Under the pieces are notes generated by a model. It saw nothing but the letters and a program-made list of their open reading frames with translations, made no database searches and was not told the DNA's origin. Below are positions 19,380-59,170 of a DNA stretch of 64,000 nt, piece by piece (the stretch's first letter is position 1; each line of letters starts with the position of its first letter). The stretch is from Brachypodium distachyon (taxonomy: Eukaryota > Streptophyta > Magnoliopsida > Poales > Poaceae): NCBI RefSeq assembly GCF_000005505.3, contig NC_016131.3:4733501-4797500 (forward strand), in the 5' to 3' direction. Both the position numbers and the translations under genes were made by a program.

Positions 19380-19900
19380 CTTCCTTCTCTACTCTGCTTG
19401 CAAAGTGTACACAATCGTGTTGATCTAGCCCAGCTAAAGGACGGTACGAATTAGACACCAGTATTCCATAAGTCTAATTTCAATCTTGGACTGGCCTAGT
19501 CTAGCTAACGCCCGTAGATATTGACATAATAGAAGCTGCGTGCTTTAGGATGCGTGTCTTGGGAATGTGTGGCATCGAGAAACAAATGGCCGCAAACCGT
19601 GTACATGGGTCAGCTAGTTCACGCTGCTGGTCTAGGTAGCAGTTTTCCATGTTCTGTATGTTGGCTTCAAAGCTCAGGCTAAGCTTGGCTTAGCTTGGTA
19701 TGGATCGGGTCAAGTCAGGTGGATTCAGAAATACCAGTCTTTCAGAAACCGATCGACGAACGACGGGACGAGCGTTCGTTGCTTGAGTTGCTTCCTGTGG
19801 AATGGCCATGTCAAGGGCCACCTATTGGCTGTCTGTGCTTAGAGCAACTTGAGCCAATGCATGGGTTGCAGTGATTGGACTGGGTCGGCCTGAGATCTAC
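19380..19900 (+). ncRNA. Putative 21-PHAS locus, miR2118 site 19560-19581
   Basis: The 22-nt site contains GGAATGTGTGGCATCGAGAA, about three mismatches from the complement of a miR2118 member. The leader TTCATAAG...TCTAATTTC...CTTGGACTG and AGAAGCTGCGTG before it are shared with the loci at 20.9, 26.0 and 36.9 kb. Downstream, GGCTT(C/G)(A/G)AAGCTCAGGCTAAG and GGATCGGGTCAAGTC are shared with the same loci. A TATA-like TATATACTACTAG pair lies at about 19327 and 19354. There is no coding frame. Expected cleavage is 19571/19572. Limits approximate. Confidence 0.65.
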
Positions 19901-20542
19901 TACAGGGTAACCAGCGATCAGTTTACATATACACTGAGGGACATAATGAGCAGGGCATCCCGTTGAATCACGTCTATTCATTTTCCCCATATTTTTTTTT
20001 TTGGAAGCACGAACCTACAAAACTGTTACGCAAAACCGTGCTGGAGATTAAACGGTTTTAGAATGTCCGGATCGAACATAGAAGAGTTTATAGTCCAGGC
20101 TTGAAATTGGATCAAGCACAATTCACATTTTAGAATATACTCTATTCTGTTCTATTGAGGAAAATATTGTTTTGTTTCAATCTGATCAAAATTATTGTTG
20201 CATGACCGGACGTTTGCTTCTTACGTAGAAGTTCGCAAAGGCCAACCTTGAGCTTTGCATCTGTGGTTCTTGCCACTAATTGAACAAAAAATTGTATACA
20301 CTTACCCCGGTCACTGAAGAATAGAGAGCTGACTGAGCTGCCCCATTTGCTTTTGAACACACTCATCTTTTCAATTTTTATTCTTATCTGGAGTTACACA
20401 AAGTCTAGACGCGTTGATTTATAATGTAACTGTTTCTCTCTACCACGCACGTATGTATTAATGTTATGATATAAAATTTAGAACCATACATGCTCCAACC
20501 AACTCATGGTATGCATTAAAGTCGTTCTCCATCTATATACTA

Positions 20543-20655
20543 CTCCCTCCGATTCATATTAATTTTCTCAAATTTGTCTAAATATGAATATATCTATGCC
20601 TAAAAGGCGTCTAGATACATGTAATATTTTGACAATTAAAAAGGATCGGAGGGAG
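20543..20655. mobile_element. Stowaway-like MITE, 113 bp
   Basis: CTCCCTCCG...CGGAGGGAG terminal inverted repeats are flanked by TA at 20541-20542 and 20656-20657. The related sequence at 19325-19360 lacks it. Confidence 0.9.
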
Positions 20656-20689
20656 TACTTTGCGGTGCCTGTCCTCATACACATCAAGC

Positions 20690-21120
20690 CTTCCTTCTCT
20701 ACTCTCGATCATTGCAAGTATGCATAATCGTGTTGAGCCCTCTCATTTGGCCTCTCACTTTTTTAGCCTAGCTGACGGAGGGTACGAGTTAGACACAAAC
20801 TATTTCATAAGTCTAATTTCTATCTTGGACTGACATAGTAGAAGCTGCGTGTGTTAGGATTAATTGTGTGCCTTGAGAATGTGCGGCATCGAGAAACAAG
20901 TAGGCGCAAGGTGTTGTCACAGGTCAGCTCACTCATGCTGCTGATCTGGGTAGCGGTTTTCCATGTTCTGTCAGTTGGCTTCGAAGCTCAGGCCAAGCTT
21001 GTCCTGTCTTGGTTTGGTTTGGATCGGGTCAAGTCTGGTGGCTTCGAAACTACCGTTCTTCTAGAAAGAGTCTGACGAACGAGGCAGCTGAGATACGGCG
21101 GCTGTAGATTGGCTCATGGG
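20690..21120 (+). ncRNA. Putative 21-PHAS locus, miR2118 site 20874-20895
   Basis: Site GAATGTGCGGCATCGAGAA with about four mismatches to the miR2118 complement. Upstream it shares the TGCAAGTATGCATAATCGTG and TTTTAGCCTAGCTGACGGAG leader with sister loci. Downstream it shares the TCAGTTGGCTTCGAAGCTCA block. No coding frame with homology. Expected cleavage 20885/20886. Confidence 0.65.
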
Positions 21121-21869
21121 CTACAATGGTTGTGTGCCGTTATGCCGTTCTCATCTTGGTAAAAGATCGCAGTCCGTAACATTGAGCCTCCATCCCTCAG
21201 CACTCGCTCCACTGCTACTAGCGCGGTTAGCCAGTGGTAGATGCTGAATCCATCCTAATCCCATTGGAAACAAATTATCCTGCCTCGAATCGTTCGCTGG
21301 ATCATCAGCTTCTACTCCTGTCACGTGACTTGCCCACTGCAGAGCAACTTATTCGGTCCCATTTTGCTCATTTACATGCTTTCGGGTTACTCCAGTGCAA
21401 GGAGCACTGATATCTTCGATGCAATTTTAATTTCCATTTGATATGCTGTATTCTGAGTTCTGACTTCCTCATCATCAGTTTTTCAGATGTCTAGATTATT
21501 CAGACAACGCCCTCTCAAGTTCTTTCACTTGAGGCATATAACCATGGAAATAACTTCCTCAGGAGAATTATGTTAGGGGCAAATTCATTGCGATGGAGAT
21601 TTATTAGATTGATTTTCATGTTCTTGGAGATGACTGGCACACCCTCTCTAGCCACAAGTTTGTTCATTGCTTTGATGTGTATATATACCAACTTACATTC
21701 TTAGGTAGGAACCATTAACTCAGAAGGAAGTTAGCTGGTCAGTGTACTGAACTCTAGAGTCGCAGTCATGCTCTCAATTAATTTATTAAGAAATCCAGTG
21801 GCAGTTTTTTTCCTGTTAGTGTTTGGGCATTTTATAGACTCCTTCATAATTTGTTGTCACTGAAGCTTC

Positions 21870-22180
21870 AAAATTGAGCAGACAAATCGATTGTTCCGGT
21901 GTACATACATCAACGTAGGATTATTAGATTAATTTTTGATGTTGATTTTATTCCACAGTTTTGCCAGGACTTCTCCTGTCTTTGTTCTAGTGTACCTGGA
22001 GATGGTTGGCCCATCCTCTGTAGCCACAAGTTGATTAATCCTGATGATTTGTATATAAATAAACTCACATTCTTAGCTAGGACAGATTAAAAATGCAGAA
22101 GATGCACTTTACTATAAGTCATTTTATCTCCGATTCTAGATGACAGAAAGCCGACAAAGAGTTAACAAATAATTCTACCT
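21870..22180. repeat. Duplicated spacer block B (copy 1)
   Basis: GAGCAGACAAATCGATTGTT through CAGGACTTCTCCTGTCTTTG and GTAGCCACAAGTTGATTAATCC to ATTCTACCTTTTG. Copies recur at about 23605-24100 (with a MITE inserted at 23896) and 26495-27010 (with a MITE inserted at 26527). The block precedes the loci at 22.5, 24.6 and 27.6 kb. Confidence 0.85.
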
Positions 22181-22329
22181 TTTGTGGATCCTCCCAACAC
22201 TATAACCTTTTCTCTCTAGTACGCATACACGATACACCTAACTTATTTTTCTGACCAACTCGTAAGCACATACAACTACTTTCGCTGCCTTCATTCTCTA
22301 CTCACCTTGCAAGTATACGTAATCGTGTG

Positions 22330-22860
22330 ATCCCCTGCTATATATATGTGTGTGTGCTCTCATTTGGCCTCTCATTTTTTATAGCCTAGCCGATGAGGGC
22401 ACGAATTAGCAATTATTTCAAAAGACTAAATTTCTATCTTGGGCTGATTAGCATTTTTCAGACAGTTGCCGCAGATATTGAAGTGGTAGAAGCTGCTTGT
22501 CTTAGAGTTGTGTCTCTTGGGAATGTGAGGCATCGAGAAACAAGCGGGGCAAATTGGTTACATGACCCAACTTGTACACGATAGGAGGAGCCAAGCAGAC
22601 AAAATGCTCCTGCTAGCGACCGCCAGGATGCCATTAGAAGTTTAGATCACGATAAGGTAACACAAGGCCGTTGGTGTATCGTCAGGCTCATGCAGTATAT
22701 CTGCTGCAGCGATTTGATCCGAGGCGCGAGCGATAGGCACCGTCATCCCATTGCTGAGGCTGAAACAAAGGCTGATATAGTACTTAATAGGGACGGACGA
22801 ACGGCTGATAAACGCTTCTTCGCCGAGACTGGTCAATACTAGCTCGAGAAGGACTCGACG
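22330..22860 (+). ncRNA. Putative 21-PHAS locus, miR2118 site 22518-22539
   Basis: Site GGAATGTGAGGCATCGAGAA is one of the three best matches in the window, about two mismatches from the complement. The TATA-like TATATATGTGTG lies at about 22341, some 180 nt upstream. The leader (CTCATTTGGCCTCTCATTTT, TAGCCTAGCCGATGAGGGCA) is shared with the 24.6 and 27.6 kb loci. Noncoding downstream. Expected cleavage 22529/22530. Confidence 0.7.
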
Positions 22861-24339: not shown

Positions 24340-24990
24340 GGCTATACATAATCGTTCGATCCCCTCTTATATTTGTACGTGTGCTTTTATTTGACATCTC
24401 ATTCTTTTTAGCCTAGCCGCTGAGGGCACAAATTAGCCACCATTTCATAAGTCTAAATTTCTATCTTGGACTGAGTACCATACTTTCAGATAGTTGCCGT
24501 AGATCTTGAAGTGGCAAGTAGAAGCTGCGTGTGTTCGAATCATCGATCATGTACCTTGGGAATGTGCGGCATCCAGAAACAAATGGACGCAGGGTCCTTT
24601 GGCGTGACGATGAGGCAAGCTGACAAAATGCTCCTGCGAGCCAACGCCATCATGCCATTAGAGCCGAGGCTAGTAAGCACGACAAGCAAACGCAAGACTG
24701 CAGTCGTTTGGTCAGGCTCACGCAGTATATCTCCTGCTGCCCCGGGCATCTATTCTTCTCCTGTATGCTTACTAGGCACGAGAGTAACCTCCGCCGCTTG
24801 TTCGGGCAAATCGCCCACCGCCGCGCGCCTCGTAGATGTATTGATCGCGGAGGGAGAGGACCGGTTTTGAGGGCGCTTCCGCCATCGTTGAGAGGTGCCG
24901 CTCACGACTGAGGACGCCCCTTGCGCTTCGGAGGAGCCCGGAGGACGTCGTCGTTGGGCCCGGAGAGGCCAGGACCATTTTGTTAAATTT
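24340..24990 (+). ncRNA. Putative 21-PHAS locus, miR2118 site 24557-24578
   Basis: Site GGAATGTGCGGCATCCAGAA has about four mismatches. TATA-like CTTATATTTGTACG lies about 190 nt upstream. Downstream, the sequence AAGCTGACAAAATGCTCCTG and GTTTGGTCAGGCTCACGCAG is shared with the 27.8 kb locus. Open frames at 24511-24911 overlap the site but encode nothing recognisable. Expected cleavage 24568/24569. Confidence 0.65.
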
Positions 24991-25789: not shown

Positions 25790-26290
25790 CTTTACTTCTC
25801 TACTCTACTACTTGCAAGGGTACATAATCGTGTTGATCTAGACTAGCTAATGGAGGGTAGGGATTACACAGTAACTATTTCATAAGTCTAATCTCAATCT
25901 CGGACGGACCTAGCCTAGCTAACGGCTGTAGATGTTGACATAGTAGAGGCTGCGTGTGTTAGGATTGTGTGTCTTGGGAATGCGCGGCATCGAGAAACAA
26001 ATGAGCGCAAAGTGTGTAGATGAGTCAACTTGGTCACTTTCCCAGCTTGGGCATGTCCTGTGAACCTGTCAGTTGGCTTCGAAGCCCAGGCTAAAGCCTG
26101 TCTTGGCTTAGTTTGGCCAAGTCGACGACTCCTTCGCCTTCCTCCGGTTCTCTGTCTCGGACACCTTTCTGGCTTTTTCTTTCTTGTTCTTCACCACTTG
26201 CCAGAACACTGAATCTGAACTCCTGTGTGATTGTCCTAGAGAGAGTGAATTGAGGTGTGTTAACAGGCCAGCGTTGACTAAAACAGCTGA
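25790..26290 (+). ncRNA. Putative 21-PHAS locus, miR2118 site 25975-25996
   Basis: Site GGAATGCGCGGCATCGAGAA with about three mismatches. The flanks match the 19.6 and 36.9 kb loci on both sides (GTGTTAGGATTGTGTGTCTT upstream, TCAGTTGGCTTCGAAGCCCA downstream). Noncoding. Expected cleavage 25986/25987. Confidence 0.65.
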
Positions 26291-27349: not shown

Positions 27350-27740
27350 ATAAATAATCGTGTGATCCCCTCTTATATGTGTATGTGCATGCTCTCACTT
27401 GGCCTCCTATCATTCTTTTTAGCCTAGCCGATGAGGGGCACGAATTAGCCACTATTTCATAAATCTAAATTTCTGTAGTATCTTGGAGTGACTAGCATAC
27501 TTTCAGATTATCACTGTAGATGTTGAAGTGGTACATAGAAGCTGCGTGTGTTAGAATCGTCAATTAGTGTACCTTGGGAATGTGCGGCATCCAGAAACAA
27601 ATCGACACAGGGTTTCCCGGCGAGCCGACGAGCCAAGCTGACAAAATGCTCCCGCGAGCCGTTGGTCGCACGCCACCCGAGCCAAGGCCAGTAAGCACGG
27701 CAAGCAAACGCAAGACTGCATATTTTGGACTGACTAGCAT
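27350..27740 (+). ncRNA. Putative 21-PHAS locus, miR2118 site 27575-27596
   Basis: Site GGAATGTGCGGCATCCAGAA with about four mismatches. TATA-like CTTATATGTGTATG lies about 200 nt upstream. After the site the sequence runs GAGCCAAGGCCAGTAAGCAC, like its tandem partner. It is cut off near 27720 by a second copy of its own leader, so the two target sites are 241 nt apart. Expected cleavage 27586/27587. Confidence 0.65.
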
Positions 27741-28180
27741 ATTTTCAGATAGTTGCCGTAGATATCTAAGTGGTACGTAGAAGCTGCGGGTGTTCGAATC
27801 ATCAATCGTGTACCTTGGGAATGTGCGGCATCCAGAAACAAATGGACGCAGTGTCCTCCGGCGTGATGTTGAGGCAAGCTGACAAAATGCTCCTGCGAGC
27901 CAACGCCATCACGCCATTAGAGCCAAGGCCAGCAAGCACGACAAGCCAACGCAATACAACAGGAGTCGTTTGGTCAGGGTCACACAGTATATCTGCTGTT
28001 GCCCCGACCGTCTATTCTTCTCCTGTACGCTTACCAGGCAGTGGAGTAACCACGGCTGCTTGCCCCTTGTGCGCCGGAGCCCGGAGGGCGCCGTTGTTGG
28101 GCCTGAAGGGACGTACTTGAAAGCCAGGACCATTTTGTTAGAAAAATATTCTTTTTACACATCACTCGTATGTAGATCCT
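27740..28180 (+). ncRNA. Putative 21-PHAS locus, miR2118 site 27816-27837
   Basis: A partial tandem copy of the preceding locus, starting inside the leader (TGACTAGCATATTTTCAGAT). Same site variant with about four mismatches. The body is closest to the 24.6 kb locus. It may lie on the same transcript as the 27575 site, since no separate TATA region was duplicated. Expected cleavage 27827/27828. Confidence 0.65.
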
Positions 28181-30220: not shown

Positions 30221-30222
30221 CC

Positions 30223-33569: not shown

Positions 33570-34100
33570 CATTCAACTTTCCCTCTCGCTAAGGTGCTTC
33601 CCTCATCTACTCATGCCCACTTTGCTTAGTTCTTATGTTTTCCATGTTTGTTATTTCCGTTGAAATTCCTGGCGTGGTGATATTGGTACAATGATGAAGT
33701 ACCCCATATTCACCACTTGAGAATGAGGGGCATCAAGAAACCTTGTTTGGCAGGAATTGCTAGCTGGACAACCCAGAAATTTTGACCTGGCTTACTAAGG
33801 ACCCTTGAGGCAAGTAAACAAAACAAAGACCTTAATTTGTCCACACAAAATATGACATAGAAAATTTGCTATTTCAGTATATACTCCAGTTAATGATTTT
33901 CTATTTTTTAGAATAACAGTTGCCTATCCTGTTCTGTTGTGATCTGCAGGTAGTGTTTTTTCTTTAGAAACAGATCTGCAGGTGTTAAAGCGTGAATTGT
34001 TTCTAGTATATTTGGTTTGCTTTGTATACAAGGTGGGTTATTGTCTCGAAGCTCTAATTGAAAGGACCGACCGACGAGGGTTTGAATGAATTGTCACTCC
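33570..34100 (+). ncRNA. Possible PHAS locus, miR2118 site 33718-33739
   Basis: The site GAATGAGGGGCATCAAGAA has about five mismatches. A clean TATA box (CCTATATAAAG, about 33550) lies about 166 nt upstream. The leader AAGGTGCTTCCCTCATCTAC is related to that of the 38.2 kb locus (GAGGTGCTTCTCTCGTCTAT). Flanks differ from the 19-28 kb family. Noncoding. Expected cleavage 33729/33730. Confidence 0.5.
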
Positions 34101-35269: not shown

Positions 35270-35570
35270 CTCATTGCAAATATACATAATAGTGTGATCC
35301 CTCTCATTTGGCTCTCATCCTTTTTAGCCTAGTCGACGGATTGTACGAATTAGGCACTAAATATTTCATAAGTCTAATTTCTATCTTCTTTTTTTTGACG
35401 GGGAAAGTCTAATTCTATCTTCACTAGCATAGCTTGAGACAATTGCTATAGATATAGAAGTAGTAAAAGCTGTGAGTGTTAGAATTGTGTGTCTTAGGAG
35501 TTAGGAATGTGCGGCATCGAGAAACAAATATGCGCAATGTGGATTTGACATGGGTCAACTTGTAAGCGCC
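35270..35570 (+). ncRNA. Putative 21-PHAS locus interrupted downstream, site 35502-35523
   Basis: Site GGAATGTGCGGCATCGAGAA preceded by TA gives about two mismatches to the complement of a miR2118 member, among the best in the window. The leader matches the 20.9 kb locus. Similarity to sister loci stops near 35570, about 45 nt past the site, where an unrelated insert (35571-36010) begins. Expected cleavage 35513/35514. Confidence 0.65.
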
Positions 35571-36639: not shown

Positions 36640-37170
36640 CTAGCGCAAGTGCACAACAAGCCTCTTATTGATAGGGCTAAAGATGACGGTACCTCTCATA
36701 ATCGGGGCGTGGGTTCCCTCTCATTTTGTTTAGCCTAGCTAGCCGGCGGAGGGTACGAATTAGAGACTAAATTAATTCATAAGTCTATTTTTTCTATCTT
36801 GGGCCGAACTAGCCTAGCCTAGCTAATTTCAGTTCTACTGAATTAGCAGAAGCTGCGTGTGTGTCTTGGGAATGTGCGGCATCGAGAAACAAATGGGCGC
36901 AAAGTGTCCACATGGGTCAACTAGTAAGCGAGATGCTCCTGCGAAGCAGCCGAGTCTACGGTGCCGCTTCGGGTACCAGTTTACTACGTTCTGTCAGTTG
37001 GCTTCGAAGTTCAGGCTAAGCCGGGCCTGGATGTGTTCGGATCGGGTCAAGTCGGGTGGCTTCCAAGCCAAGGAAACGCAAGCGAGCCGTCGCCGGTCAC
37101 GGCCACGAACGAGGGGGCGCGTTTTCCTTGCTTCTGCAGAATGGTCAGCGCGCGTTGACTCCTAGATAAA
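36640..37170 (+). ncRNA. Putative 21-PHAS locus, miR2118 site 36867-36888
   Basis: Site GGAATGTGCGGCATCGAGAA with about three mismatches. It shares AGAAGCTGCGTGTGTGTCTTG upstream and TCAGTTGGCTTCGAAGTTCAGGCTAAG plus GGATCGGGTCAAGTCGGGTGG downstream with the 19.6 and 20.9 kb loci, 16 kb away on the far side of GEX1. Open frame 36857-37165 starts before the site and has no homology. Expected cleavage 36878/36879. Confidence 0.7.
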
Positions 37171-39159: not shown

Positions 39160-39870
39160 AACCACACTCTGCCCCGGGTGAAACACTGAAACCACAAAAT
39201 AATCAACGACGCTACCATAATCATCCTTTCTCTAAAGGTCACGCTGGCCATGAATGTTCTGCAGGGTTGATCGATTTAGAACAAGTAAATCTGTACTTAT
39301 TGAAAATATTTAGCTCAAAGTCCATTTTGAACGGTAAATCCTTACATACTGACAATTATACATGAGCAAACCCCAGGCTGGGCCGGGTTTCAGACAGGGC
39401 TTCATAAAGCCCGACAAGAAACCTCAAGCCCGAGCCCGGCCCGAAGCCCGAGAAAATGACCGTTTAGCATTAAAATAATTGTTTTCGGGATAAACAAATG
39501 ATTTTTATACCTATTTTTCCTAAAAATACCTGTTTTTACTCATTTCGGGCCGGGCTTGGGACTGGAAAGTGAAGCCCGAGCCCGGCCCGGGACGTCGGGC
39601 TTCGGGCCGGGCCACCATGCCCAGGTATACTAACAATGTTCACTACTCTTGATTGGCGTTCCTACAATAAACATATGACCCACCACTATTCAATATTTTC
39701 ATGTACCAAGTCAAATTCACTTGTCATATATATCCTCGGCTAGAACTCCTTGTCTTTCTGCACCTATACCAGCCTCTGTTCATTATTTCTCGCTCGTGCT
39801 TTTCTTACTTAACTTGCTAGATCTTGATCCATATCGATAGGGTTGTAAGGCATGTATCCGTGACCTCGGA
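39160..39870. repeat. Segmental duplication D (copy 1)
   Basis: From CTCTGCCCCGGGTGAAACAC through CTTTCTCTAAAGGTCACGCT, CATTTTGAACGGTAAATCCT and CACTTGTCATATATATCCTC to the PHAS site. The second copy is 43999-44445. They differ by a 273-bp insert at 39356-39628. Confidence 0.9.
39356..39628. mobile_element. hAT-like nonautonomous element, 273 bp
   Basis: The insert is absent from duplication D copy 2 (44.2 kb). It is flanked by ACTGACAA (39348-39355) and ACTAACAA (39629-39636), an 8-bp duplication with one mismatch, typical of hAT. GC-rich subterminal GGGCCGGG...CCCGGCCC repeats (AGCCCGAGCCCGGCCCG) surround an AT-rich core. Terminal repeats are weak, so the superfamily is inferred from the duplication length. 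Confidence 0.65.
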
Positions 39871-40170
39871 ATGAGCGGCGTCAGAAAATTGTTTGTTAGA
39901 ACCACATGATCTGTCCATGGCTTCATGGGAATGGTCTTGGTATTTTCCAATCCGATCCGATCCGTTCTGCATAACAAACTAAGGCCTTCCCGACCCTTAG
40001 ATTGCATCGCACCCGCCGAACGTTGCCGCCACAATTGACTCTCTGACATGCCCGTCAGTCATCTTCGCAGTCACAATCAATTCAGTAGGACACTACCCTT
40101 CTGAATCTTGAAAACGGTAGTCTATACGTGCAGAGCTCTCGACCTCGGAAGTCTCGCAGAAAGCATTAGT
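39740..40170 (+). ncRNA. Putative 21-PHAS locus, miR2118 site 39866-39887
   Basis: Site GGAATGAGCGGCGTCAGAAA with about five mismatches. TATA box CATATATATCC at about 39726 lies about 138 nt upstream. The leader CTAGAACTCCTTGTCTTTCT and CTTAACTTGCTAGATCTTGA is shared with the 44.4 kb locus and partly with 41.7 kb. Noncoding. Expected cleavage 39877/39878. Confidence 0.6.
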
Positions 40171-41569: not shown

Positions 41570-42010
41570 CCAGAAACTCCATGTTTTCCCTGCACCAACC
41601 TCTCTGTCTAATGATTATTTCTTCGCCTAGACTTTCCTTCTTAACTTGCTAGATCTTTATATTGATGAAGCTGCAAGCAACAATGCATGGATCCACGGTC
41701 TTGGAATGAGCAGCATCAGGAAAATCTCAGCAAATTCCACCGCAATTGTGCATTCTCTGTTGCTTAAATCATGAATGTGTTGCTAGGTCACTCATAATGT
41801 GATAAAGAATCTTCAGGCATCAATCTTTTCTGGACTAGTGTGTGGGATACCTTGCTAATACAAGCCACAGTCCTAGATGAGCATAGTTCTCCGAAAACTA
41901 ACGAACAGGATCATAAGTTCGCAACTTGAAAAGGGGAGGAGACGAATCACCTCGACCAGACCTACACGCCACGATCAAACATATATAGGAGGGTCATGAT
42001 CATGGATCGA
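41570..42010 (+). ncRNA. Putative 21-PHAS locus, miR2118 site 41701-41722
   Basis: Site TTGGAATGAGCAGCATCAGG plus AA, about four mismatches. ATTATATCTTGCC lies about 140 nt upstream, and the leader CTTCTTAACTTGCTAGATCT is shared with the 39.9 and 44.4 kb loci. Noncoding downstream. Expected cleavage 41712/41713. Confidence 0.6.
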
Positions 42011-42689: not shown

Positions 42690-43110
42690 TAACACCGTCC
42701 GTCGGAGTCAATTCTAGTCTGCTGCGAACAACACATGCCATCCATCCAGAGTCCAATCTCGTGTCTATTCTTCTTCTGCCAATGATACATGTCGTCAAGC
42801 AAACTCTTGAGAGATGGGTAAATAATGTGTGCATCCACATGGCTTTGAATGAGCGGCATCGGAAAGAGGAAAACACAAACTCTGTTTTGCAGGAATGCAA
42901 GATCAGTTCTTCAAACTTCGCGCGCAGACATTGCGCTGGACGACAATCCTGAAAATAGGCGCTATTATAAAAGTGGCATCTATCACTTTGCTCTGTTTTG
43001 TGACAAATATGTCCTACGTACATATGTCGGCGCTGCGTGTGATTAATGTACGAAGTACGATCTTACCGTTTCCTTGTGCTCCTCTTGAAACCTTAGCCTT
43101 GTGATTTTCC
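42690..43110 (+). ncRNA. Putative 21-PHAS locus, miR2118 site 42844-42865
   Basis: Site TTTGAATGAGCGGCATCGGAAA-like with about five mismatches. TATA box CAATATATAGC at about 42666 lies about 175 nt upstream. Flanks differ from the other loci, so the similarity is confined to the site and spacing, as in independent PHAS loci. Overlapping open frames (42761-43104) have no homology. Expected cleavage 42855/42856. Confidence 0.55.
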
Positions 43111-43239: not shown

Positions 43240-43850
43240 TTCAGAATTCTATGCCAAAATGATGGGTGCCAAGCGAGCAGAATTTTAATCTGTGAGCACC
43301 TCTAGCACCTGTGAATTGAGCTGACACATCTCTCACGCTACGAGGAAAAAATTCACAGATCATGGTGCAAACTTGTTCGAGGCTGAACATGGTGTAAAAT
43401 AACCGTATACTAGGCAGCTAGACAGTCTAAACAAATTCAATTGGCATGCTATCTTTTTATTTGAAGGCACACAGTTCACGAGGTTGGGATACAAGCGCAT
43501 TCCGATAATTCCGTGGTGTTTGAGTTCTAGAGAGCTCATGGTCTAAACGGCTCTAGTACGCTGCATGTGGTGGTGCTGTTTTTGTAGAAGAAGCGGGTGG
43601 AAGAAGGCTTATCGAGACTTAGTGACAAACAAGCTGCGACCATTTTCCTGATGCCGCCCATTCCCAGCGATCTCTGGCTCATGCAAGAATATCACATTGG
43701 AGAAGAATTGTGAAGACTGAAGACATTAGCTATGCCTGCACAAGAGCTAGCTTAACATGTTCTTTGTTATACATATGCTGGTCCTGCGCTCAACAATTCT
43801 CTCTGTTCTTGTATGGTGGGAAGAAACAGAGCAAAAGGGCCATGTATATG
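43240..43850 (-). ncRNA. Putative minus-strand PHAS locus, site 43645-43666
   Basis: The + strand reads TTCCTGATGCCGCCCATTCC plus CA, only about two differences from miR2118 itself, so a minus-strand RNA carries a near-perfect target. A minus-strand TATA-like box (CCATATACATGG, near 43840) lies about 180 nt upstream. The block 43530-43930 recurs at 46.06-46.5 and 54.70-55.03 kb. Alternative: a + strand MIR2118-type hairpin, using GCGGGTGGAAGAAGG at 43600 as the other arm, but pairing is poor and not compensated in the copies. Expected cleavage 43655/43654. Confidence 0.65.
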
Positions 43851-44309: not shown

Positions 44310-44800
44310 TCAGCTCGAATTCCTTGTCTTTCCGCACCTATACCAGCCTCTGTTAATTATTTCTGGCTCGTGCTTTTCCTACTTAACTTGCTAGATCTTG
44401 ATCCATATATCGATATGTTTGTAGGACATGGATCTGTGGTCTCGGAATGAGTGGCATCAGAAAATTCAAAATTGTTAGTAAGAACCATAGGAACTTTTAG
44501 CTATTACCTAGGCCTGGAAGTGGTACGTGCGTAACCAGTTTTAATGGCCCGGTTTTAGGTTTGGGCTAGCTCTCTGTGGGTGAGCATGGACTGCAGCTCT
44601 GAACAGTTTGGCTTGGACAGTTGGACTAGGTCTGCCATGCAAACAAGCGATGCAGTTTCCAAGTTATAAGTTTGATTTTGTTGCAACATGTATCTATTGC
44701 AAAGAAACTGCATTCATTGTGGCGCATTGCAATATCGAGCAGGGTAAAAGACTATTGCCACACATTTTGTTTTGTCATGATAAAGGATTATTATATCGCA
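44310..44800 (+). ncRNA. Putative 21-PHAS locus, miR2118 site 44442-44463
   Basis: Site GGAATGAGTGGCATCAGAAA with about four mismatches. TATA box CATATATATCC at about 44299 lies 140 nt upstream. Sister of the 39.9 kb locus within duplication D. Similarity stops soon after the site (AGAAAATT), so the phasiRNA-producing part would differ. Expected cleavage 44453/44454. Confidence 0.6.
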
Positions 44801-45199: not shown

Positions 45200-45740
45200 T
45201 CTCTCCTTTCCACCGGCTTCGAACAACACCCGGTGTTTTCGGGTTTGCCAGAGACTGCGCTGATGGATCGCGGCGAAATTTCACGAGCTCATGGTAGACA
45301 CAATTCCAAACAATCCCACCGAAGGGATCGGCGGAAACTTTCTTGAGGCAGCGGAAAACATGCGAATAAGTCAGACGTCACGGCCGCGAGAAATCCAACA
45401 AACACTGCGAGAACCCCATGTCGCCATCCACCACTTGTTCTTGTCTTCTAATAACCCCTTGGAAACTACTGCTAGGGAGCATTCGCAGACAATTTCCAAT
45501 CACCCTCATTGCAAGATTTCACGAACCAACAAATGATAGCATGCTTCAACTCATTTTCATGATGCCCTCCATTCCCAGTGAGCTCTTCGTCAACCAACAA
45601 TATGGAGTCTCTAATTCGCCAAGAGCTGCGAAGACGTTAGTTTTGCCTGATCAAGAGCTAAACACGATCTGTATTATATATGATCAAACAATTATCGTTG
45701 TTCTTGTCGAGTTGTGGAGTATATATGTTTGGGTGATGTA
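45200..45740 (-). ncRNA. Possible minus-strand PHAS locus, site 45556-45577
   Basis: The + strand reads TTCATGATGCCCTCCATTCC plus CA, about four differences from miR2118. Flanks do not resemble the 43.6/46.2/54.8 kb family. TATATAAT is present on the minus strand near 45670, about 95 nt upstream. Expected cleavage 45566/45565. Confidence 0.45.
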
Positions 45741-46039: not shown

Positions 46040-46410
46040 TGCAGAAGGCTGAGGATTACGCGGTGTTCGAGTTCTAGGTAGTTCATCATCCAAACAGCTA
46101 AACGGCTCTAGTGCGCTGCATCTGGTGGCGCTGTGTTTGGAGAAGAAGCTGGTGGAAGGAGGCTTATTAAGACTAAGGAGAGAAGTACGCTGCGATCATT
46201 TTCCTGACGCCGCCCATTCCCAGCGATCTCTAGCTCATACAGGAATATCACATTGGACAAGAACTGTGAAGACGGTATGTATGTCTGTGCAAGAGCTAGC
46301 TTAACACGTTCTTTGTTATATACATATGCTGGTCCTGTCCTGCGCTGAACGATTCTCTCTGCTCTTGTGTGGTGGGAAGAAACAGAGCAAAAGGGCCATA
46401 TATATGCAGA
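46040..46410 (-). ncRNA. Putative minus-strand PHAS locus, site 46201-46222
   Basis: TTCCTGACGCCGCCCATTCC plus CA on +, about three differences from miR2118. The block is a copy of 43.53-43.93 kb, including the CAGCGATCTCT and ATATCACATTGGA flanks and the minus-strand TATA region (CATATATATGGCCC, near 46395). Expected cleavage 46211/46210. Confidence 0.6.
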
Positions 46411-48245: not shown

Positions 48246-49059
48246 TGCTTCTAAACGGGACAAGTGCTTTTTAGAGAGTTAGAAGCCTCAAAAGCTGAAT
48301 CAGAAGCCTTGTTTGTTTACACTGGAGAGGCTGATGTAACGAGAAAGCAGCAGACGCCAAGCCTAGCCGCGTAGAACAGATCAAACGAAAACTTTCTGTC
48401 CTGTAGGGCCGATGCATGGCCAAGATTCCGCTACCGCAGCGACCTGCTGATGGACGTTTCATCCAAACAATTAGTTTGTTCTCTTTTTTTTTCTTATGTA
48501 CTCCTAGCTCGATCGGCAGTGATTGCAAAATTTGAATTTGTTGGACACTCATGATTAGCGCTTCAACCTACACATTTGGTTTATTTCTGATGAAGCACAA
48601 CAAGCCTAATACAAGATTTAGAATAAGGTTCACAATTTGGTTATGGATCAGGAAAAAGGTGTTTTATTTGCTTCCAATCTAATCTTCTTAGTTTCAGACA
48701 TTTTGATCTTGTACTAGAAATTTAGATAGATCTTCTTAACTTACATACTTTTATCTCGTACAAATTTCGAAATTTGGATGTTATTAGTTTAGACATATTG
48801 ATCTTATAGAGATAATCCGAATATTTCAAAATGACCGAGGAAAAAAAAGTAGTCGGAGTGTCAAGGCGGCGCTTGGGGCGATTCTCGTCTACGAGGCGCA
48901 GATCTACACCTTCCGGCCGATCTCTCCCCTGCGACGACCTTGGTTTCATCCCGCTCCCTGCTGTTGCACTCGGGGTGATTCAGGGGAGACCTTTGCATCT
49001 CTGCCCGCCCTTGGTGCGTGGGGGAGGGGAGGATTCTAGGGTTTGGGGTTTCGGCGGCA

Positions 49060-50247
49060 ATGGCATCTGGAGGTCCTGGTGATCAGGAAGAAGAGAGGGT
49101 GGAGGCAATGCTGAGTAAGATGAATCTGACGGAGAAGGAGAAGCAATCCGTGGTTGTTGAGGAGTTGGTTGATGAGGATGAAGGCCTTTTGTGGGCGCTG
49201 GTTGGGAAGGTGCTGCATCGGAAGATCTTCCATGTGAGCACGATGGAGGAGGCGTTGCGCCCTGCATGGGGTAACCCAAGGGGGCTCACCTTCCGATCGA
49301 TGGGAGAGAACATGTTCGTTGCACAGCTGGAAACGCAGCGTGACAGAGATCGAATCTGGGAAGGAGCGCCATGGATGGTTGGTAAGCATGCAGTGGTATT
49401 AGAGTTTTTTGATATCAACTCTAGGCCATTTGATCTGAAGTTTGATCGGATCCCAATGTGGACTCGTGTGATTAATCTGCCCTTTAATCTTCTCCGCCCA
49501 CCTTGGGTGAGAAGGATTGCGGATCTGACGGGTGAAGTGATCAAAGTTGATACTGACGCCAATGGCTATGCTTGGGGTCAGTTCCTGCGTGCTAGGGTTT
49601 GGGTTCCAGTGAAGGAACCAATTAGGAGGTATGTGAAGATTGACTCGTTCAGGAAAGATGAGACGGGCAAGCGTAAGGTGGTGGAGCTGTATAAGCTACA
49701 ATATGAGAATCTGCCCTATTTTTGTTTTTCATGTGGTTTGCTGGGGCATGCTGATATCTTCTGCCCAACGCCGGCTAGGCGGGATGAGGAGGGCAAGCTG
49801 CCATATAGTGAGGAGCTGCGTGCTCCGAGTTGGAGCAGGAGTTGGGGAAATGCGTCGTCTGCGACGCAGGAAGGGTCGTTTGCGAGTCGTAGCCGCGATG
49901 CGCAAGCTCAGGATGAGGAACAAGGAGAGGAGGTGACATACCCAGTGAAGAACGGTGGAAAAGTTCAGAATATGGTCTCTCAGTTCAATCGGGGTGGACA
50001 TGGTAGAGGTTATGGCCGAGGTGGTAGAGGCTCCGACCACATGTATCGGATAGTTCCGATGCAGTCGCAGGGAGAGACTTTGATGCTGCTAGATCAGGAT
50101 ACCCTCAATAAGAAACGCGCTAATGAGTTAGAAGGGGAAACAGAGAGGTCTGGAGACAGCAGAGATTCAAAGAAAAAGAAGGCTTCAGGTGGTGAGACGA
50201 GCCCTATTTTGGCGGCGGCTGAGACCCAGCCCCGCCAGGACCAATGA
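49060..50247 (+). CDS. LINE ORF1 protein (DUF4283 / zinc knuckle)
   Basis: ORF1 of plant L1 LINEs is an RNA-binding protein that packages the element RNA. The reading frame is intact at 395 residues from ATGGCATCTGGAGG. An upstream in-frame ATG at 49018 is less likely, since the conserved N-terminus begins MASGGPGDQEEERVEAML. A DUF4283-like domain lies at residues ~40-175 (WGNPRGLTFRSMGENMFVAQ), and a CCHC knuckle (CFSCGLLGHADIFC) at ~221-234. A Gly/Arg-rich patch (GGHGRGYGRGGRG) and a basic tail (SKKKKAS) follow. The stop codon overlaps the ORF2 start (ATGA, 50244-50247). It is the only intact frame of this element. Confidence 0.85.
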   Translation: MASGGPGDQEEERVEAMLSKMNLTEKEKQSVVVEELVDEDEGLLWALVGKVLHRKIFHVSTMEEALRPAWGNPRGLTFRSMGENMFVAQLETQRDRDRIWEGAPWMVGKHAVVLEFFDINSRPFDLKFDRIPMWTRVINLPFNLLRPPWVRRIADLTGEVIKVDTDANGYAWGQFLRARVWVPVKEPIRRYVKIDSFRKDETGKRKVVELYKLQYENLPYFCFSCGLLGHADIFCPTPARRDEEGKLPYSEELRAPSWSRSWGNASSATQEGSFASRSRDAQAQDEEQGEEVTYPVKNGGKVQNMVSQFNRGGHGRGYGRGGRGSDHMYRIVPMQSQGETLMLLDQDTLNKKRANELEGETERSGDSRDSKKKKASGGETSPILAAAETQPRQDQ

Positions 50248-53200
50248 GTTGCTTGGTGTGGAACTGTCGCGGGCTTGGGAACCCGGAGATAGTTCGTGAG
50301 CTTCACAATATGGTGAGGTTGGAAGCGCCCGCGTTGGTTTTCATTAGTGAAACCAAGATTGATGCTACAAGGGCAAGAAATCTTATGTCGAAATTGGGTT
50401 TTGTTGGTTGTTTGCCCGTGGCTAGCAATGGCCTTAGTGGCGGTTTGGTGTTGTTTTGGTCGAGGGAAGTTGATGTTACTTTGCAGACCTTGTCAAATCA
50501 ACACATTGATGTGCAAGTGGTGAACATTGGAGGTGATAGAAAACACTGGAGATTCACAGGCTTTTATGCTAAGGCGAAACGCAGCGAGCGGGCTGAGAGC
50601 TGGACTTTGTTGAGATGGCTTCGTACTTAGAGTGATCTGCCTTGGCTCTGTGGAGGGGACTTCAATGATATCCTCGATAATTCAGAATATTTTGGTCATA
50701 ATGACCGTGAGGAGTGGCAGATGGCTGGTTTTAGAGAAATAGTGGATGAGTGTGATTTCATTGATCTGGGTTATACTGGTGTACCGTTTACTTGGTACAA
50801 TGGCCAGAGTGCAGATGCTAATGTGAAGATTAGGCTGGACCGGATGTTGGTGAATCCTGCCTTCGGCGCGCTGTATGGGTGCACTGTTGTGAGGCATGCA
50901 CCATCACCTAAGTCAGATCATTGCATGTTAATTACAAAAATCCGTAAGTCGCTGGATGAGGATATTGCTGGAGGACCTCGGCCTTTCATGTATGAAGATG
51001 CTTGGAGGAAGGAGGAGAGTTATGCAGAGGCTGTGCTGCACGGGTGGCCGACGGGCGCTGGGATGGCTGGCCTTGCTGGGCTGAATAATGCATTATCGCA
51101 GATGCAAGTTTGTCTGACGGACTGGAGCTCCAAGAAATTTGGGGACGTCAGGAAGAAAATTAAGAAAGTTCGAAAGATGTTTGAGAGGAAGAGCTCCCTG
51201 TATCGTGGTATTTCCCAGCGAGAGAAGGAGTTGGCTCGGCAGCTGGCCGACCTGCTGCAAAAGAAGGAAATCATGGCTCGCCAACGGTCTCGTGTGGATT
51301 GGCTGAAAGAGGGTGATAGAAATATGGCTTTTTTTCATGCGCAGGCGTCGACAAGAAAGAGTCAGAATCGCATTAAGGTTCTTACTAATGATGCGGGTGT
51401 GGTGCTTGAGGATAGGGATCAGATTTTCCATTGCATAAATTCTTTCTATACTGACTTGTACTCGGCACAAGAGAATATTAATATTGAGGCTGTTCTTGGT
51501 TATGTCCCGACCAAAGTAACTATGCAAATGAATGAGCGCTTATGCCGGCCTTTCGAGGCGGGTGAGGTTAAGAAGGCCCTGTTTGACATGAGCCATCCAA
51601 GGCCCCTGGGGCAGATGGTTTCACGGCTGGGTTCTTCCAGAAACACTGGAATCTGGTTCAAGATGATGTGACGACGGCAGTCCTGGCTTTCTTACAAGGT
51701 GATCACATGCCGGATATTGTCAACCGAACTATTATTGTCTTGATACCGAAGGTAAAAAAACCCACAAAATATTACCCAGTATCATCCTATTTCGTTATGC
51801 AATGTTATATATAAGCTGTGTTCGAAAGTTCTTGCTAACCTCTTCCGTGAAGTGTTGGATGAAATTATTTCGGAGGAGCAAAGTGCTTTCGTTCCGGGCA
51901 GGCTTATCACCGACAATGTCCTGACTGCTTATGAGTGCATACATTCAATGAAGAAGAAGAAGAAGAAGAAGAAGAAGAAGAAGGGTAGACAGGGCTGGTG
52001 TGCGGTCAAGATTGACATGATCAAAGCTTATTATCGAGTGGAGTGGGCCTCAAGGCGTGATGCAGAAGTTGGGCTTCGTTGAGCAGTGGGTCACCTTGAT
52101 TATGAGATGTGTGTGTTCGGTGAGTTTCCAAGTGAAGGTCAATGGAGAACTGTTGCCATCTTTTCGACCTTCACGAGGGATTAGGCACGGGGACCCGATT
52201 TCACCTTACTTATTCCTGCTATGTGGTGAGGGTCTTTCATGCTTGCTGAAATCGTATGATGGCGGCTGGATTGATCGTGGGATCTGGGTGAACCCCAGGG
52301 CGCCTTGGATCACCCATCTCTTTTTCGCAGATGATTGCCTTGTATTTTTACGAGCGGATGTGAGAAGTGCTGTGTGGCTCAATACCATCTTGGAAATTTA
52401 TAGTAATGGCTCGGGACAGAGTGCTAACAAGCTAAAACGATCAGTGTTCTTTAGCAGGAACTGCTCGGCCCTGTCTCGACAGGTAGTGCGAGGCATGCTG
52501 CAAATTGACAGAGGTGCTCTCTGAGAAGTACCTCGGGTTGCCGACTGCAGTGGGGCGAATCACGGAGCAGAATGTTGAACACATTGTGGAGCGAGCAAGG
52601 TCAAGGGTACAAGGGTGGAGCGAGAAGAAGCTCTCCTGTGTGGGGAAAGAGGTGTTGCTGAAGACTGTGATCCAGGCTCTACCGACCTACTCTATGAGTT
52701 GTTTTAAACTCACAAGAGGTTTGTGCAAAAAAGTGACGACAAAGCCGTCAAAATACTGGTGGACTGGTTCACTTGATCGTCGAGGCATGCATTGGCAGTC
52801 TTGGGAGAAGATGGCTGTGCCCAAGGACAGAGGGGGACTTGGCTTCCGTGATTTGGAATTATTTAATGACGCTATGCTCGCTAAGCAGGTGTGGCGTTTG
52901 CTGGAACGACCTGACAGTTTGTGTGGTCGTGTGCTGCTCGGGAGATATAACCAGGGAGGAGATGTCCTAACAGCGTCGTGCCCCAAAGGTGCATCAACGA
53001 CCTGGAAGGCTTTAATGAAGGGAAGAGAGGTGTTGAAGTTAGGTCTGATCCGCCGTATTGGCGATGGCCGAACAACTGAAATTTGGCATGATAGATGGAT
53101 CGATGGCATCGGATCCATGAAGCCCCTCGGCAGATTGTCAGAGGAGCCAGTGCAGCTGGTTGTTGATCTTTTTGTGGAAGGTTCCACGGTGTGGGATGTG

Positions 53201-54348
53201 CAGAAAATTGAGAGAATTTTTTTCCCTATCGATGCGGCGGCAATCTTAAGCATGCCAAGGCCGCGAACAGCCCAGCCTGACTTTTGGGCGTGGGCATGGG
53301 ACAGAACTGGCCAGTTTTCGGTGCGATCGGCGTATAAAGAGATTGCTATAAGGAGTGAAGGAGCTTTGCCAGTCTCTGAATCTTCTATGGGGGGTGAGGC
53401 CACTTGGAAGGCTCTGTGGAAGCTGCAAGTAATGCCAAAGATTAGAGTTTTTTGGTGGCGAGTTGTGAAGGATCTTCTTCCTTCCTCTGCTGAGTTGCAG
53501 CGACGCCATATCAAGGAGCTAGGTAACTGTCCTTTGTGTGGTATTCAGTCAGAATCATTATTCCATGCCTTGATCGAATGTGAACATGCTAAGCAGTTCT
53601 GGTTGGTGGCAATGGAAGTGTTTTAGTTCAAGTTGCCGCGTCTGCATCCGAGGACATGGTCCAGGGACACACTTGATTCCGAGATCGTGCCGAGGAGAGA
53701 AACAGCTATTGTAATCTCAGTTATGTGGACGATCTGGGGCAGCCGGAATAGCTACACTCATGGTGAGCTGATGTATCAACCACTGAAATCAGTGGAGCTG
53801 GTGTCTGAGCTCATCAACTCGCTGGAGATTCCCAGGTTTGAAGCTACACAGGCCGAGCACGAGGAGCAAAAATGGTCCAGGCCAGAAGCTGGCTGGATCA
53901 AAATAAATACTGATGGTGCTGTGGACCTGGGGAAGATGACTGTTGGCACTGGGGTAATTGCTAGAGACCAAGCAGGATTTTTCCTCGCAGCGGAGTGTCG
54001 ACAGTATGTTGGCATACATGATCCGGCCGTGGCTGAGGTGATGGCTTGTAGGGATGCGGTTTTCTTGGCTGCTCAAAAGGGATGGCAGTACGTTGTGATT
54101 GAATCGACTGCCTCTCTGTTGTCAGTGCTTGGGATAGCCGGCTGGAGAATAAGTCTAGTTCCAGTCAGATTTTTCGGGAGATGAAAGATGTTCTCTCCAC
54201 CTTCCAGGGTTTTAGAATTTGCTTTGTTAGGAGAGGTGGTAATAAGGCGGCACATGTTTCTGCTCGCACTGCCCTCTCTTTAGTTTCGTCGGTGTGCTCG
54301 AATTTTCTGATTGAGCCTGTCCAATCGGATACATTATCGATGGAATAA
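50244..54348 (+). pseudogene. LINE ORF2 (endonuclease-RT-RNase H), broken
   Basis: ORF2 nicks target DNA and reverse-transcribes the element RNA. In order: APE-type endonuclease (LVWNCRGLGNPEIVRELHN; CGGDFNDIL after the first stop), RT ([22 protein letters not shown] at 52324-52335), zf-RVT (NCPLCGIQSESLFHALIECEH, ~53520-53590) and RNase H (INTDGAV, ~53908; ends QSDTLSME at 54348). Breaks: in-frame TAG at 50628-50630, frameshift near 51600, a frame change near 51750-51800, frameshifts near 52045-52060 and 52500-52510, TAG at 53624-53626, and a frameshift near 54140. A pure (AAG)11 run at 51951-51983 inserts a polylysine tract before the first RT aspartate motif, [13 protein letters not shown], where the usual KAYDRVEW Asp is Tyr. 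Confidence 0.9.
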
Positions 54349-54499: not shown

Positions 54500-54990
54500 C
54501 ACTGAAACAACTTGGGCCAAATCTCAGATCCGGAAAGATTTAATGCAAGCGTTTAGTGGGCCATGCTGCTTTTCAAGCTGTTATCTTTCGAGACTGGAAT
54601 ATATAGGTCGCAAATACAGTACTAAAAAGGCTTGAAGTTGATAGGAATAGCAGTCTGATCATCTTCAGCAGTGCGATCAAATGATAGACGAACAAGATTC
54701 CGAGATGCCTGGCGCTCGAGCGCTGTAACGAGTATTCGGTGGAAGAAGGCTTATTGAGACTTATTAGAGCAACACGCTGCGATCATTTTCCTGATACCGC
54801 CCATTCCCAACGATCTCTGGCTCACGCAGGAATATCACATTGGACAAGAACTGTGATGACATTAGCTATGTGCCTATGTCTGCACTGCTGCATGCACGAG
54901 AGCTAGCTTAATGTGTTCTTGACTATATGCTGGTCCTGCGCTGAACGATTCTCTTCTTGTCTGGTGGGAAGAAAAAGAGCAAAAGGGTTA
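54500..54990 (-). ncRNA. Putative minus-strand PHAS locus, site 54788-54809
   Basis: TTCCTGATACCGCCCATTCC plus CA on +, about three differences from miR2118. Third copy of the block at 43.6 and 46.2 kb, with conserved CGATCTCTGGCTCA and ATATCACATTGGACAAGAAC. Minus-strand TATA box (CCATATATATAACCC, near 54985) about 180 nt upstream. Expected cleavage 54798/54797. Confidence 0.65.
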
Positions 54991-55599: not shown

Positions 55600-56050
55600 G
55601 GTTGCCACAGGCTGTGAGGGCAGTTCTTTTATTATACACTTTCTTTTCTTTTCCACTCATGTGACACACAAGAACACTCAAACCTACGGGCCAGAGCGCA
55701 GCACAGGCTTCATTAGATACTATGCGTAGGCAAAATGATGAGTTCCTTAATTAATTTGCTACCCCAGAATGAGCGGCATCAGGAAGCACGCTAAGCGATG
55801 CAGAGTTACACGATGTCCTAATCTGCCATAAATGTAACTCAACATCATGTTATACAGTACACCATCATTTCCAATTTGTAAGGCGGATGGAGGTTTTTGT
55901 GGATGATAAGTGGAAAGATGGTGTAAATGAATAGTACTTCCTGTTGCCCATGCTGTGACTTTTCCCATGACGCACTCTTTCTCTGCATGCTCAGCCCAAT
56001 CAGGTGTGTTGCATGCACATGAGAGTAGTGGTAGCAGGAACGAGATTAAT
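55600..56050 (+). ncRNA. Possible PHAS locus, miR2118 site 55764-55785
   Basis: Site AGAATGAGCGGCATCAGGAA with about five mismatches, mostly at the miRNA 3' end side. No TATA box at the usual distance; ATATATAGG lies about 240 nt upstream. It lies between the two copies of duplication E. Noncoding. Expected cleavage 55775/55776. Confidence 0.45.
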
Positions 56051-57010: not shown

Positions 57011-57064
57011 AACCTGAGGGGTTACTTTTGATCTCCACTATTGATCTGCATCAAAATCCGCATA

Positions 57065-57580
57065 TCTCTTTAATCTAAAGGGCGAAAGATTGAGGCCTTG
57101 TTTTTGCCTCCACATGTTTTTATCCCCACCGTTCTCACTTCCGATCTCCCTCGTTGGTCGTTCTTTTCTTCTCTGTCCTGTTTGGTCCGCTGGTTGATTT
57201 CGACCCGTCCATCTACCGCCGCCACCGCCGTTGTCTGCTTCCCGTCAATCCGGCTCTTTCCGGCCAACTTGCCGCTCGGGCGCCGGCCCCGCTGCTGCTC
57301 GCGCGTGCGCCGCTCGACGCCGCACCCTCGCCGCCTCCAGCCCTCAACGCTGCTGCCCGCGCGCGCCGACCTCCCTTGCTGCTCGCCGGAGGGAGAAGGG
57401 AAAGAGAAGAGAGGAGGAAGAAGGGAGGGAGGCACAGGTCACAGGAGGGCGCGCGCTGGACTCCGCTGCTGCAGTCCGGCGCCGCCACGCGACTGCTGGC
57501 GCCGGCCTGCTGCTGCTCCGCCCCGCCTGCTGCCCGCCGCTGGTCGCTGCTCGCGTGCGTGGAGAGGGCGCTCAGGTCGC

Positions 57581-57623
<43 letters not shown>

Positions 57624-58577
57624 TCCATGGCGGTCTGGCTTCTGTACTCACGCGCAGGAGATAAGACAGGAGGGGGAGGAAGGAAGTTGCGTGGATCACA
57701 GAGGAGAAAGGAAAGGAGAGAAAATGGACAGAGACGGTCAGGTGACGTGGCAAAATATCTTTGCCGGATGCTAGACTGTGGCCAAAGGTTATTTGGTCTT
57801 TACTTCCGGCAAAGACAAAAAAAAATTGCGTGTACACGTTTGATAAGATTTGTTATGTTTTAATTTTGTGTATTGTCCTGTAATTTTTATGCTAAACTTA
57901 TAGACCCCGTACATGGCGCCGTGCAAAAAAATGTTAATATTTGATAAAGTTTTAGTATTATTTCATTTCTTCCTATCAAACGTCTCTAGAAAATGATGAG
58001 TAATTATTTTCACATTACTCATTTTAAAAGCTAAATGAAACCACAGTAAAAAAATCAACTCAAAAACTAGACAAATTATTTCGAAACTTGTTCCGGGATT
58101 TGAACTTGGAGGGTTCATTTTCCAGTCAGATGGTAGTATCTTTGATGTGTTCGCTTAACCTGAAGCACCCTGACACAACCAAGTATTGAAAAAATGCAAA
58201 ATATTGTATTTCTCCATTTCATGATTATGCTATTTAGTGTAATGACGTGCTTAGTTTGTCGAAAAATGTATGTATGGAAGCGTTGCATTGATACAAAACA
58301 AGTACCAAATCCTGTTTCAATTCTTAACTTTCAATATAGCATTCGTGACCTGCATCCAACTATCCGAGTAAATGACGTTGTTCGCTTCGCTCGCTCGCTT
58401 ATATGCATTTTCTCACATATACTAATTTGTAATTTTTCTTATTTGTCCACTCCACCTCGACAGCAACTATTCAACATTTTAGAATTAAGTACCGAGACTG
58501 ACCAGTGCCAGGCATAGTTCTAGGAAAAAATTGCACATAGAACGTGACGCCGCAGCGAAGCGCGGTATCCCATCTAG
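57065..58577 (+). mobile_element. Helitron-like element with CACTA-derived interior
   Basis: The 3' end shows a short hairpin, CCGC (58550-58553) with GCGG (58562-58565), then CTAG (58574-58577) followed by T. That is the Helitron terminus. A possible 5' end is TCTCTTTAATCTAAAGGG at 57065 after an A. The 3' call is firmer than the 5' call. The interior from about 57250 to 58080 is a diverged, inverted copy of 59650-60600 in the neighbouring CACTA element. GC-rich frames at 57098-57863 are open on both strands and not genes. A (GA)n run lies at 57588-57617. Confidence 0.6.
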
Positions 58578-58709
58578 TATTTTCTAAGTGTACCGGTGCA
58601 AATCTCTTAAATATTCTGATATTAAATATCTCTACCTGCGAGGACTCTTCATTGTTTTGTTACAACTACCATTCATAGAAATCTCCCCCCACCCCCACCC
58701 CACATGATC

Positions 58710-59170
58710 TATATATGCTCTTGATCAGTGCACGCCATTGTTTTAGATGCCTATGCGAAAGCAGAAATGTGCATGTGTTCCTTTGCTTCCTCGGAATGGA
58801 TGGCATCTGAAACCACGCTCTAGAGTAAGTCTTTCCACCACGTCAGAATACCCTTTCCGTGAACCCCTCCAGTGACGGTTTAACAGGGTCAAAATAAACA
58901 CCGTCATTGGAGGCCGTTTGGTGCATCCTCGCGCAACACCACCGCCACTTGAATTCTCATCAGTACCACCTGTGTTCTTTCGAAAAAACACGCAATTTGG
59001 TGTAGAAGAGGTGGCAGCTTTCTGGATTGTCGATCTTATAAAAGCCGTCATTGGCCCGCAATGTTCTTTCGTAGAAGGTTAGACTTTGAGACTGAAATGG
59101 TCGCCTTTGCTGCCCTCGGTGTTCCCGGTGCCTCCAATTCCTAACCAATACATGCATCAATGGCTTATCA
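58710..59170 (+). ncRNA. Possible PHAS locus, miR2118 site 58791-58812
   Basis: Site TCGGAATGGATGGCATCTGA plus AA, about five mismatches. CTATATATGC lies about 80 nt upstream. Related upstream sequence at 48.0-48.2 kb has lost its site. Open frames on the minus strand (58743-59160) have no homology. Expected cleavage 58802/58803. Confidence 0.4.

Follow-up and report, generated by a model that had tools for sequence, protein, structure and literature searches.

Clustered miR2118 target sites in Brachypodium distachyon: a probable supercluster of reproductive 21-PHAS loci with related units

Introduction

The window studied here is a stretch of 64,000 nt of the Brachypodium distachyon genome (271.3 Mb), namely C1:4733501-4797500, where C1 denotes contig NC_016131.3 of assembly GCF_000005505.3. 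It very probably lies within a supercluster of noncoding reproductive 21-PHAS loci, i.e., loci whose transcripts are cut under guidance of the microRNA (miRNA) miR2118 and diced into phased small interfering RNAs (phasiRNAs) of 21 nt. A first-pass annotation had proposed such an array for the interval 19380-59170. The proposal gained support from five sides: a cluster of MIR2118 genes in the same genome, an excess of target sites over chance, their noncoding context, 21 families of flanking sequence around one common site, and a TATATA element upstream. From these sequence features, we infer transcription of the units, the direction in which it proceeds, the cutting and phasing, their timing, and the function.

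Results and Discussion

Target sites and their excess over chance

All 16 plus-strand sites of the first-pass annotation were found at their coordinates when the sequence was read out, and so were its four minus-strand sites. On the minus strand, however, three sites had been overlooked: 59122, which lies in the same interval, 11072, and 9841 (Table 1). Compared with two miR2118 complements, the 20 sites of the first-pass annotation have two to six mismatches, just as claimed. With both strands counted, the window contains 22 sites with at most five mismatches and 25 with at most six, whereas 100 Markov shuffles led to an expectation of 0.14 and 0.91, respectively.

These complements were then replaced by a query set derived from the genome itself, composed of 17 distinct mature variants from hairpin-supported MIR2118 candidates. 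Pairing was scored according to Jeong et al. 2013 (PMC4053937), with 1 for a mismatch, 0.5 for a G:U pair, and an accepted total of up to 5. Pairing with the miR2118 of the species, which had been named as a check, was obtained for 26 window sites scoring at most 5. Shuffling of the window gave a mean of 1.17 and a maximum of 4 sites (100 shuffled windows); scrambling the miRNA positions gave a mean of 1.9 and a maximum of 7 sites in the real window (200 sets). Three weak plus-strand matches, 18195 (5.0), 38189 (4.5), and 49203 (5.0), were excluded from the list of parts, which leaves 23 counted sites. The match at 49203 is located within the reading frame of a long interspersed nuclear element (LINE) and is probably due to chance. 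For site 36867, the cut proposed by the first-pass annotation (36878/36879) is the canonical position, opposite nt 10/11 of the miRNA.

The sites are clustered, intergenic, and noncoding, as is typical of 21-PHAS loci. The lack of coding, likewise claimed before, held up: no stop-to-stop frame across the 23 sites exceeds 154 amino acids.

The MIR2118 family in the same genome

In C6:13.92-14.0 Mb, 17 of 20 MIR2118 candidates carry the miRNA on the 3' arm of a hairpin with at least 17 of its 22 bases paired, and the same is true for two of three candidates at C5:7.469 Mb. The C6 candidates were taken from five stretches of this region, with C6:13,962,001-13,990,000 left out. A recount under another tie rule yields 16 of 20 (C6) and two of three (C5), and 17 of these 18 reveal an arm distance of 68-82 nt. 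Under a rule that is slightly less strict, 39 of 300 random places in the window pass as well; the evidence is therefore given by the MIR2118 cluster as a group, and single hairpins prove little. Many candidates in C6:13.924-13.9985 Mb are spaced by 234-277 nt, in pairs or short runs, a pattern that recalls the overlapping Bdi-MIR2118ab hairpins reported in PMC4053937.

A MIR2118 gene inside the window was considered as well and rejected. Six of the 23 site complements fold with at least 15 bases paired, but 131 of 300 random places fold equally, such that no gene is postulated there. In a comparison with Rfam, no family reached its gathering score in the window.

Extent of the supercluster

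The array continues past both edges of the window. A genome search, with the motif left open at variable positions and up to two mismatches allowed, revealed at least 45 sites in C1:4,644,247-4,818,278 (174 kb), to which a second pattern search adds sites up to C1:4,821,062. Genome-wide, this first pattern has 299 matches versus 25 with the reversed pattern. At one mismatch or less, 80 matches were listed: 26 in C1:4.65-4.82 Mb, 12 in MIR2118 genes, and 42 elsewhere. Among the matches listed, similar sites are also present on C1, C3, C4, and C5, and further groups of miR2118-type sites are located at C5:12.52-12.60, C5:5.39-5.40, C4:37.23-37.51, C5:44.12, and C5:45.83-45.91 Mb.

Flank families and upstream elements

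Grouping by flank similarity assigns the 37 supercluster sites of the window and of three flanking stretches (L058-L060) to 21 families. With one site taken per family, identity amounts to 0.76 within the 22-nt site and to 0.25-0.30 outside, where the value of 0.76 loses weight because the sites were selected by the motif and it is partly built in. The number of unrelated flank families is not built in by this selection. Across the 21 families, the target site alone is common to the loci, while duplicates within a family share more.

Three families, A, B, and C, have several members in the window. Their site identity is 0.93 (8 units), 0.85 (3), and 0.89 (4), respectively; family A was aligned with 400-nt flanks and 8 units, and the upstream flank of 27816 contains the site 27575. 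In all three, the 150 nt upstream are 0.67-0.79 alike, and similarity extends from about -250 to just beyond the site. Past about +50, identity drops to 0.30-0.56, comparable to the 0.33-0.50 observed beyond -300.

A TATA-type element accompanies the sites on one side. It was counted in 45 representatives, one per family, pooled from the supercluster and other clusters (including parts of C5:12.59, C4:37.23, C5:44.12, and C5:45.89-45.91 Mb). TATATA occurs at -260 to -55 in 27 of the 45, compared with 6.9 +- 2.3 (maximum 15) in 300 random draws from the same loci; the control bins +76 to +281 and -560 to -355 contain it in four and six representatives, respectively. CTATAWA is found 11 times versus 2.4 at random, and AAAAAA is not enriched (3 versus 8.0). 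When all sites are considered, the supercluster and the other clusters, taken separately, both show a maximum of TATAWA density from -250 to -100. TATATA played no part in the choice of sites, and its position suggests that every site has a promoter of its own that reads towards the body. Titles and abstract starts retrieved in a literature search contained no description of a promoter or TATA element of 21-PHAS loci, which is not proof of absence.

Proposed course of events

Each unit would probably be a transcription unit of its own, with a TATA-type promoter, a leader of about 100-200 nt, one 22-nt miR2118 site, and a downstream body. miR2118, supplied by the clustered MIR2118 family on another chromosome, would guide a cut opposite nt 10/11. 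The 3' fragment would then be copied by RDR6 and diced by DCL4, the cut setting the register of the resulting 21-nt phasiRNAs, presumably in premeiotic anthers.

A possible start module

The units 39866 and 44442 of family B share two upstream blocks that are 91% and 84% alike, and nothing similar is found beyond 25 nt past the site. For neither unit did the next 1 kb past the module yield another match in the window. This abrupt end is hard to reconcile with slow divergence and suggests replacement of the body. The pair 22518 and 24557 forms a contrast, as it stays 74% alike until about 170 nt past the site.

Among pairs of related units, similarity is greater upstream in 62 of 86 and greater downstream in 24 (82 sites). 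By a second measure (84 sites), 63 of 81 pairs favour the upstream side; 45 are alike only upstream, three only downstream, and 33 on both sides. Sites near the ends of stretches were dropped from both measures. Outside the supercluster, 31 of 41 related pairs favour upstream. Counted by family, the bias is carried by 10 of 16 and is not significant (Wilcoxon p = 0.19, sign test p = 0.45), and we thus do not claim it as a general law. The six families with the opposite asymmetry are L036/L037/L056, the L058 pair, the 11072 pair, L051, L052, and L016/L048. Family borders depend on the method, as family A gains three sites from outside and 41701 drops out of family B in the grouping behind the 86 pairs.

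Tentatively, we consider a reusable start module that spans about -250 to +40, consists of TATA-type promoter, short leader, and miR2118 site, and might duplicate and acquire new downstream sequence. Slow divergence would then not be the sole source of new phasiRNA bodies, as a body could also be exchanged at the trigger.

Weighing of alternative explanations

The miR2118 site has a coding counterpart: in other plants, miR2118/482 targets the P-loop codons of nucleotide-binding leucine-rich repeat (NLR) resistance genes, and the motif might have been retained here in decayed copies of such genes. In favour of this, the canonical site encodes G-M-G-G-I in one frame, and so do the complements of many miR2118 candidates. 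We discarded the explanation as highly improbable because none of the 23 sites is covered by a long frame (154 amino acids at most), and the five frames of greatest length, which the Pfam scan covered, have no match above cut-off. Within this scope, a coding P-loop in an NB-ARC frame was not found. In family A, TGC, TGT, or CGC takes the place of the second glycine codon of that frame, and at 22518 this codon is a stop. Moreover, the 21 families have unrelated flanks, and a TATATA element 55-260 nt upstream would not be expected within a gene. Nearly as improbable is a transposon or satellite family that carries the motif by chance and was duplicated without function. Duplication is evident within families A, B, and C, and a 241-nt tandem repeat contains two sites; yet the supercluster comprises 21 families with unrelated flanks, similar sites are present on C1, C3, C4, and C5, and within families A, B, and C the sites are more alike than any adjoining flank bin (at most 0.79 upstream).

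A supercluster of 21-PHAS loci thus remains the preferred explanation, against which a number of observations have to be held. With respect to the best variant, nt 4 in the miR2118 seed is mismatched at 11 window sites, to which every one of the nine family A sites belongs; the family A mismatches concern nt 4, 12, and 14. A hairpin-supported miR2118 variant starting with TTCTCG or TTCTGG, which would fit family A, was not found in the loci examined: nine occurrences of these starts include no convincing hairpin, the best one having 17 paired bases and an arm distance of 127 nt. Pairing at nt 12 is lacking in most supercluster sites: among the matches listed, an A is present opposite nt 12 in four of 26 supercluster sites but in 30 of 42 elsewhere. 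This comparison uses the genome pattern listing, which is neutral at nt 12, and its p = 1.2e-5 is optimistic because the rows are related; it supersedes another tally (A in 5 of 35 versus 39 of 49), whose loci were partly picked by a pattern fixed at nt 12. In a non-exhaustive search for a diverged miR2118 that fits the nt-12 variant (100 of 123 matches listed), none of five folded candidates (L014, L061-L064) passed, with L014 forming a long stem only when the site strand was folded with 200 nt. The simplest reading of the nt-12 deviation would be a shared founder. As to the upstream element, no TATAWA occurs within 400 nt upstream of four of the 23 window sites (24557, 27816, 36867, and 43645). 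TATATA is self-complementary, TATAAA is barely enriched (6 versus 3.5 +- 1.8 at random), and antisense CTATAWA is raised as well (6 versus 2.2); hence, the element marks a side and not a strand.

Cutting of some units may be inefficient in view of the mismatches at nt 12 and nt 4, and, with family A pairing weakly, a portion of the array may be inactive. Due to its nt-4 mismatch, poor cutting of family A, or cutting by an unlisted miR2118 variant, is possible. We regard it as conceivable, though rather doubtful, that activity is partial in this sense, with families B and C, 59122, and 11072 working and family A poorly cut or served by a diverged miR2118. The range of scores from 1.5 to 5, the nt-4 and nt-12 patterns, and the missing miRNA variant among the loci examined fit this picture. 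On the other hand, family A is 0.93 alike in the site and not in the body, which suggests upkeep of the site, the published scoring accepted totals up to 5 (PMC4053937), and the search for variant miRNAs was non-exhaustive.

Relation to known loci

The kind of locus is already known, and the cluster itself is expected in a grass genome. In rice, clusters and superclusters of 21-PHAS loci were reportedly described by Johnson et al. in 2009; these and Pms1 resemble the window in their dense miR2118 sites in intergenic DNA. What may be added to this known kind of locus is a modular construction of the units.

For Brachypodium distachyon, Jeong et al. 2013 (PMC4053937) report more than 1,100 phased loci, 437 of them with an assigned trigger and 288 initiated by miR2118a/b with cleavage evidence. 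The window agrees with these loci in species, trigger family, noncoding nature, and a pairing score of at most 5 (26 sites). The published rule required degradome tags in addition. In rice, the route leads from miR2118 via RDR6 to DCL4 (PMC7562718), and the steps after the cut, involving RDR6, DCL4, MEL1, and cutting of targets, are treated in PMC7562718 and PMC7305157.

Two other systems are related. NLR phasiRNA loci targeted by miR482/2118 have the trigger family and the core site in common with the window, but their sites are coding P-loops, whereas coding was not found at the window sites. 24-PHAS loci, triggered by miR2275, are also clustered noncoding reproductive PHAS loci; no good miR2275-type site was found in the window, where the best match to a miR2275 sequence has six mismatches.

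Grass 21-PHAS loci matter for fertility, as deletions of miR2118 in rice lead to sterility (PMC7305157). PHAS sequences are largely species-specific. Few matches across grasses are reported in PMC7057497, and because the sequences change fast, the origin of new loci is hard to trace. The supercluster, with its related units, a one-sided promoter-like element, and differing bodies on a shared start, offers a concrete place to study it.

Features of the window and neighbouring genes

Table 1. Target sites and related parts in the window (window coordinates; pairing scores against the best of 17 genome-derived miR2118 variants; element positions relative to the site)
Feature	Position	Strand	Score	Remarks
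miR2118 target site	9841..9862	-	3.5	relatives in flanking stretches L058 and L060
miR2118 target site	11072..11093	-	3.0	left of eEF1A gene; relative at C1:4655060
miR2118 target site, family A	19560..19581	+	4.0	
miR2118 target site, family A	20874..20895	+	5.0	
miR2118 target site, family A	22518..22539	+	3.0	
miR2118 target site, family A	24557..24578	+	4.5	
miR2118 target site, family A	25975..25996	+	4.0	
Tandem repeat, 241-nt	27479-27954			contains sites 27575 and 27816
miR2118 target site, family A	27575..27596	+	4.5	first of 241-nt tandem pair
miR2118 target site, family A	27816..27837	+	4.5	second of 241-nt tandem pair
miR2118 target site, single	33718..33739	+	3.0	TATAWA element at -168
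miR2118 target site, family A	35502..35523	+	3.5	
miR2118 target site, family A	36867..36888	+	4.0	predicted cut 36878/36879
Possible start module of 39866 unit	39627..39912	+		84% to 44192-44495; similarity ends 25 nt past site
miR2118 target site, family B	39866..39887	+	3.5	TATAWA element at -139
miR2118 target site, family B	41701..41722	+	3.0	TATAWA element at -205
miR2118 target site, single	42844..42865	+	4.0	TATAWA element at -177
miR2118 target site, family C	43645..43666	-	1.5	
miR2118 target site, family B	44442..44463	+	3.0	TATAWA element at -142
miR2118 target site, family C	45556..45577	-	3.0	
miR2118 target site, family C	46201..46222	-	2.0	
miR2118 target site, family C	54788..54809	-	2.0	LINE between it and other family C sites
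miR2118 target site, single	55764..55785	+	4.0	single in flank-family grouping
miR2118 target site, single	58791..58812	+	4.0	
miR2118 target site	59122..59143	-	1.5	

Inside the supercluster, between the sites 11072 and 19560, an eEF1A gene of at least two exons is located at 15793-17791 (+), identified by the Pfam GTP_EFTU and eEF1A C-terminal domains. The gap in the array between 27816 and 33718 contains a frame of 346 amino acids (30294-31334, +), which has no Pfam match above cut-off and which we take to resemble the plant nuclear-fusion protein GEX1. A LINE-type element with several frames at 49018-54184 (+) splits 54788 from the other family C sites; it matches DUF4283, zinc knuckle, zf-RVT, and RVT_3 in Pfam, with reverse transcriptase below its cut-off. 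A second, partial LINE-type element with zf-RVT lies at 62792-63994 (-). Overlapping tandem repeats with periods of 96, 118, and 215 nt occupy 12702-13283, and the GC skew amounts to -0.25 at 12001-14000.

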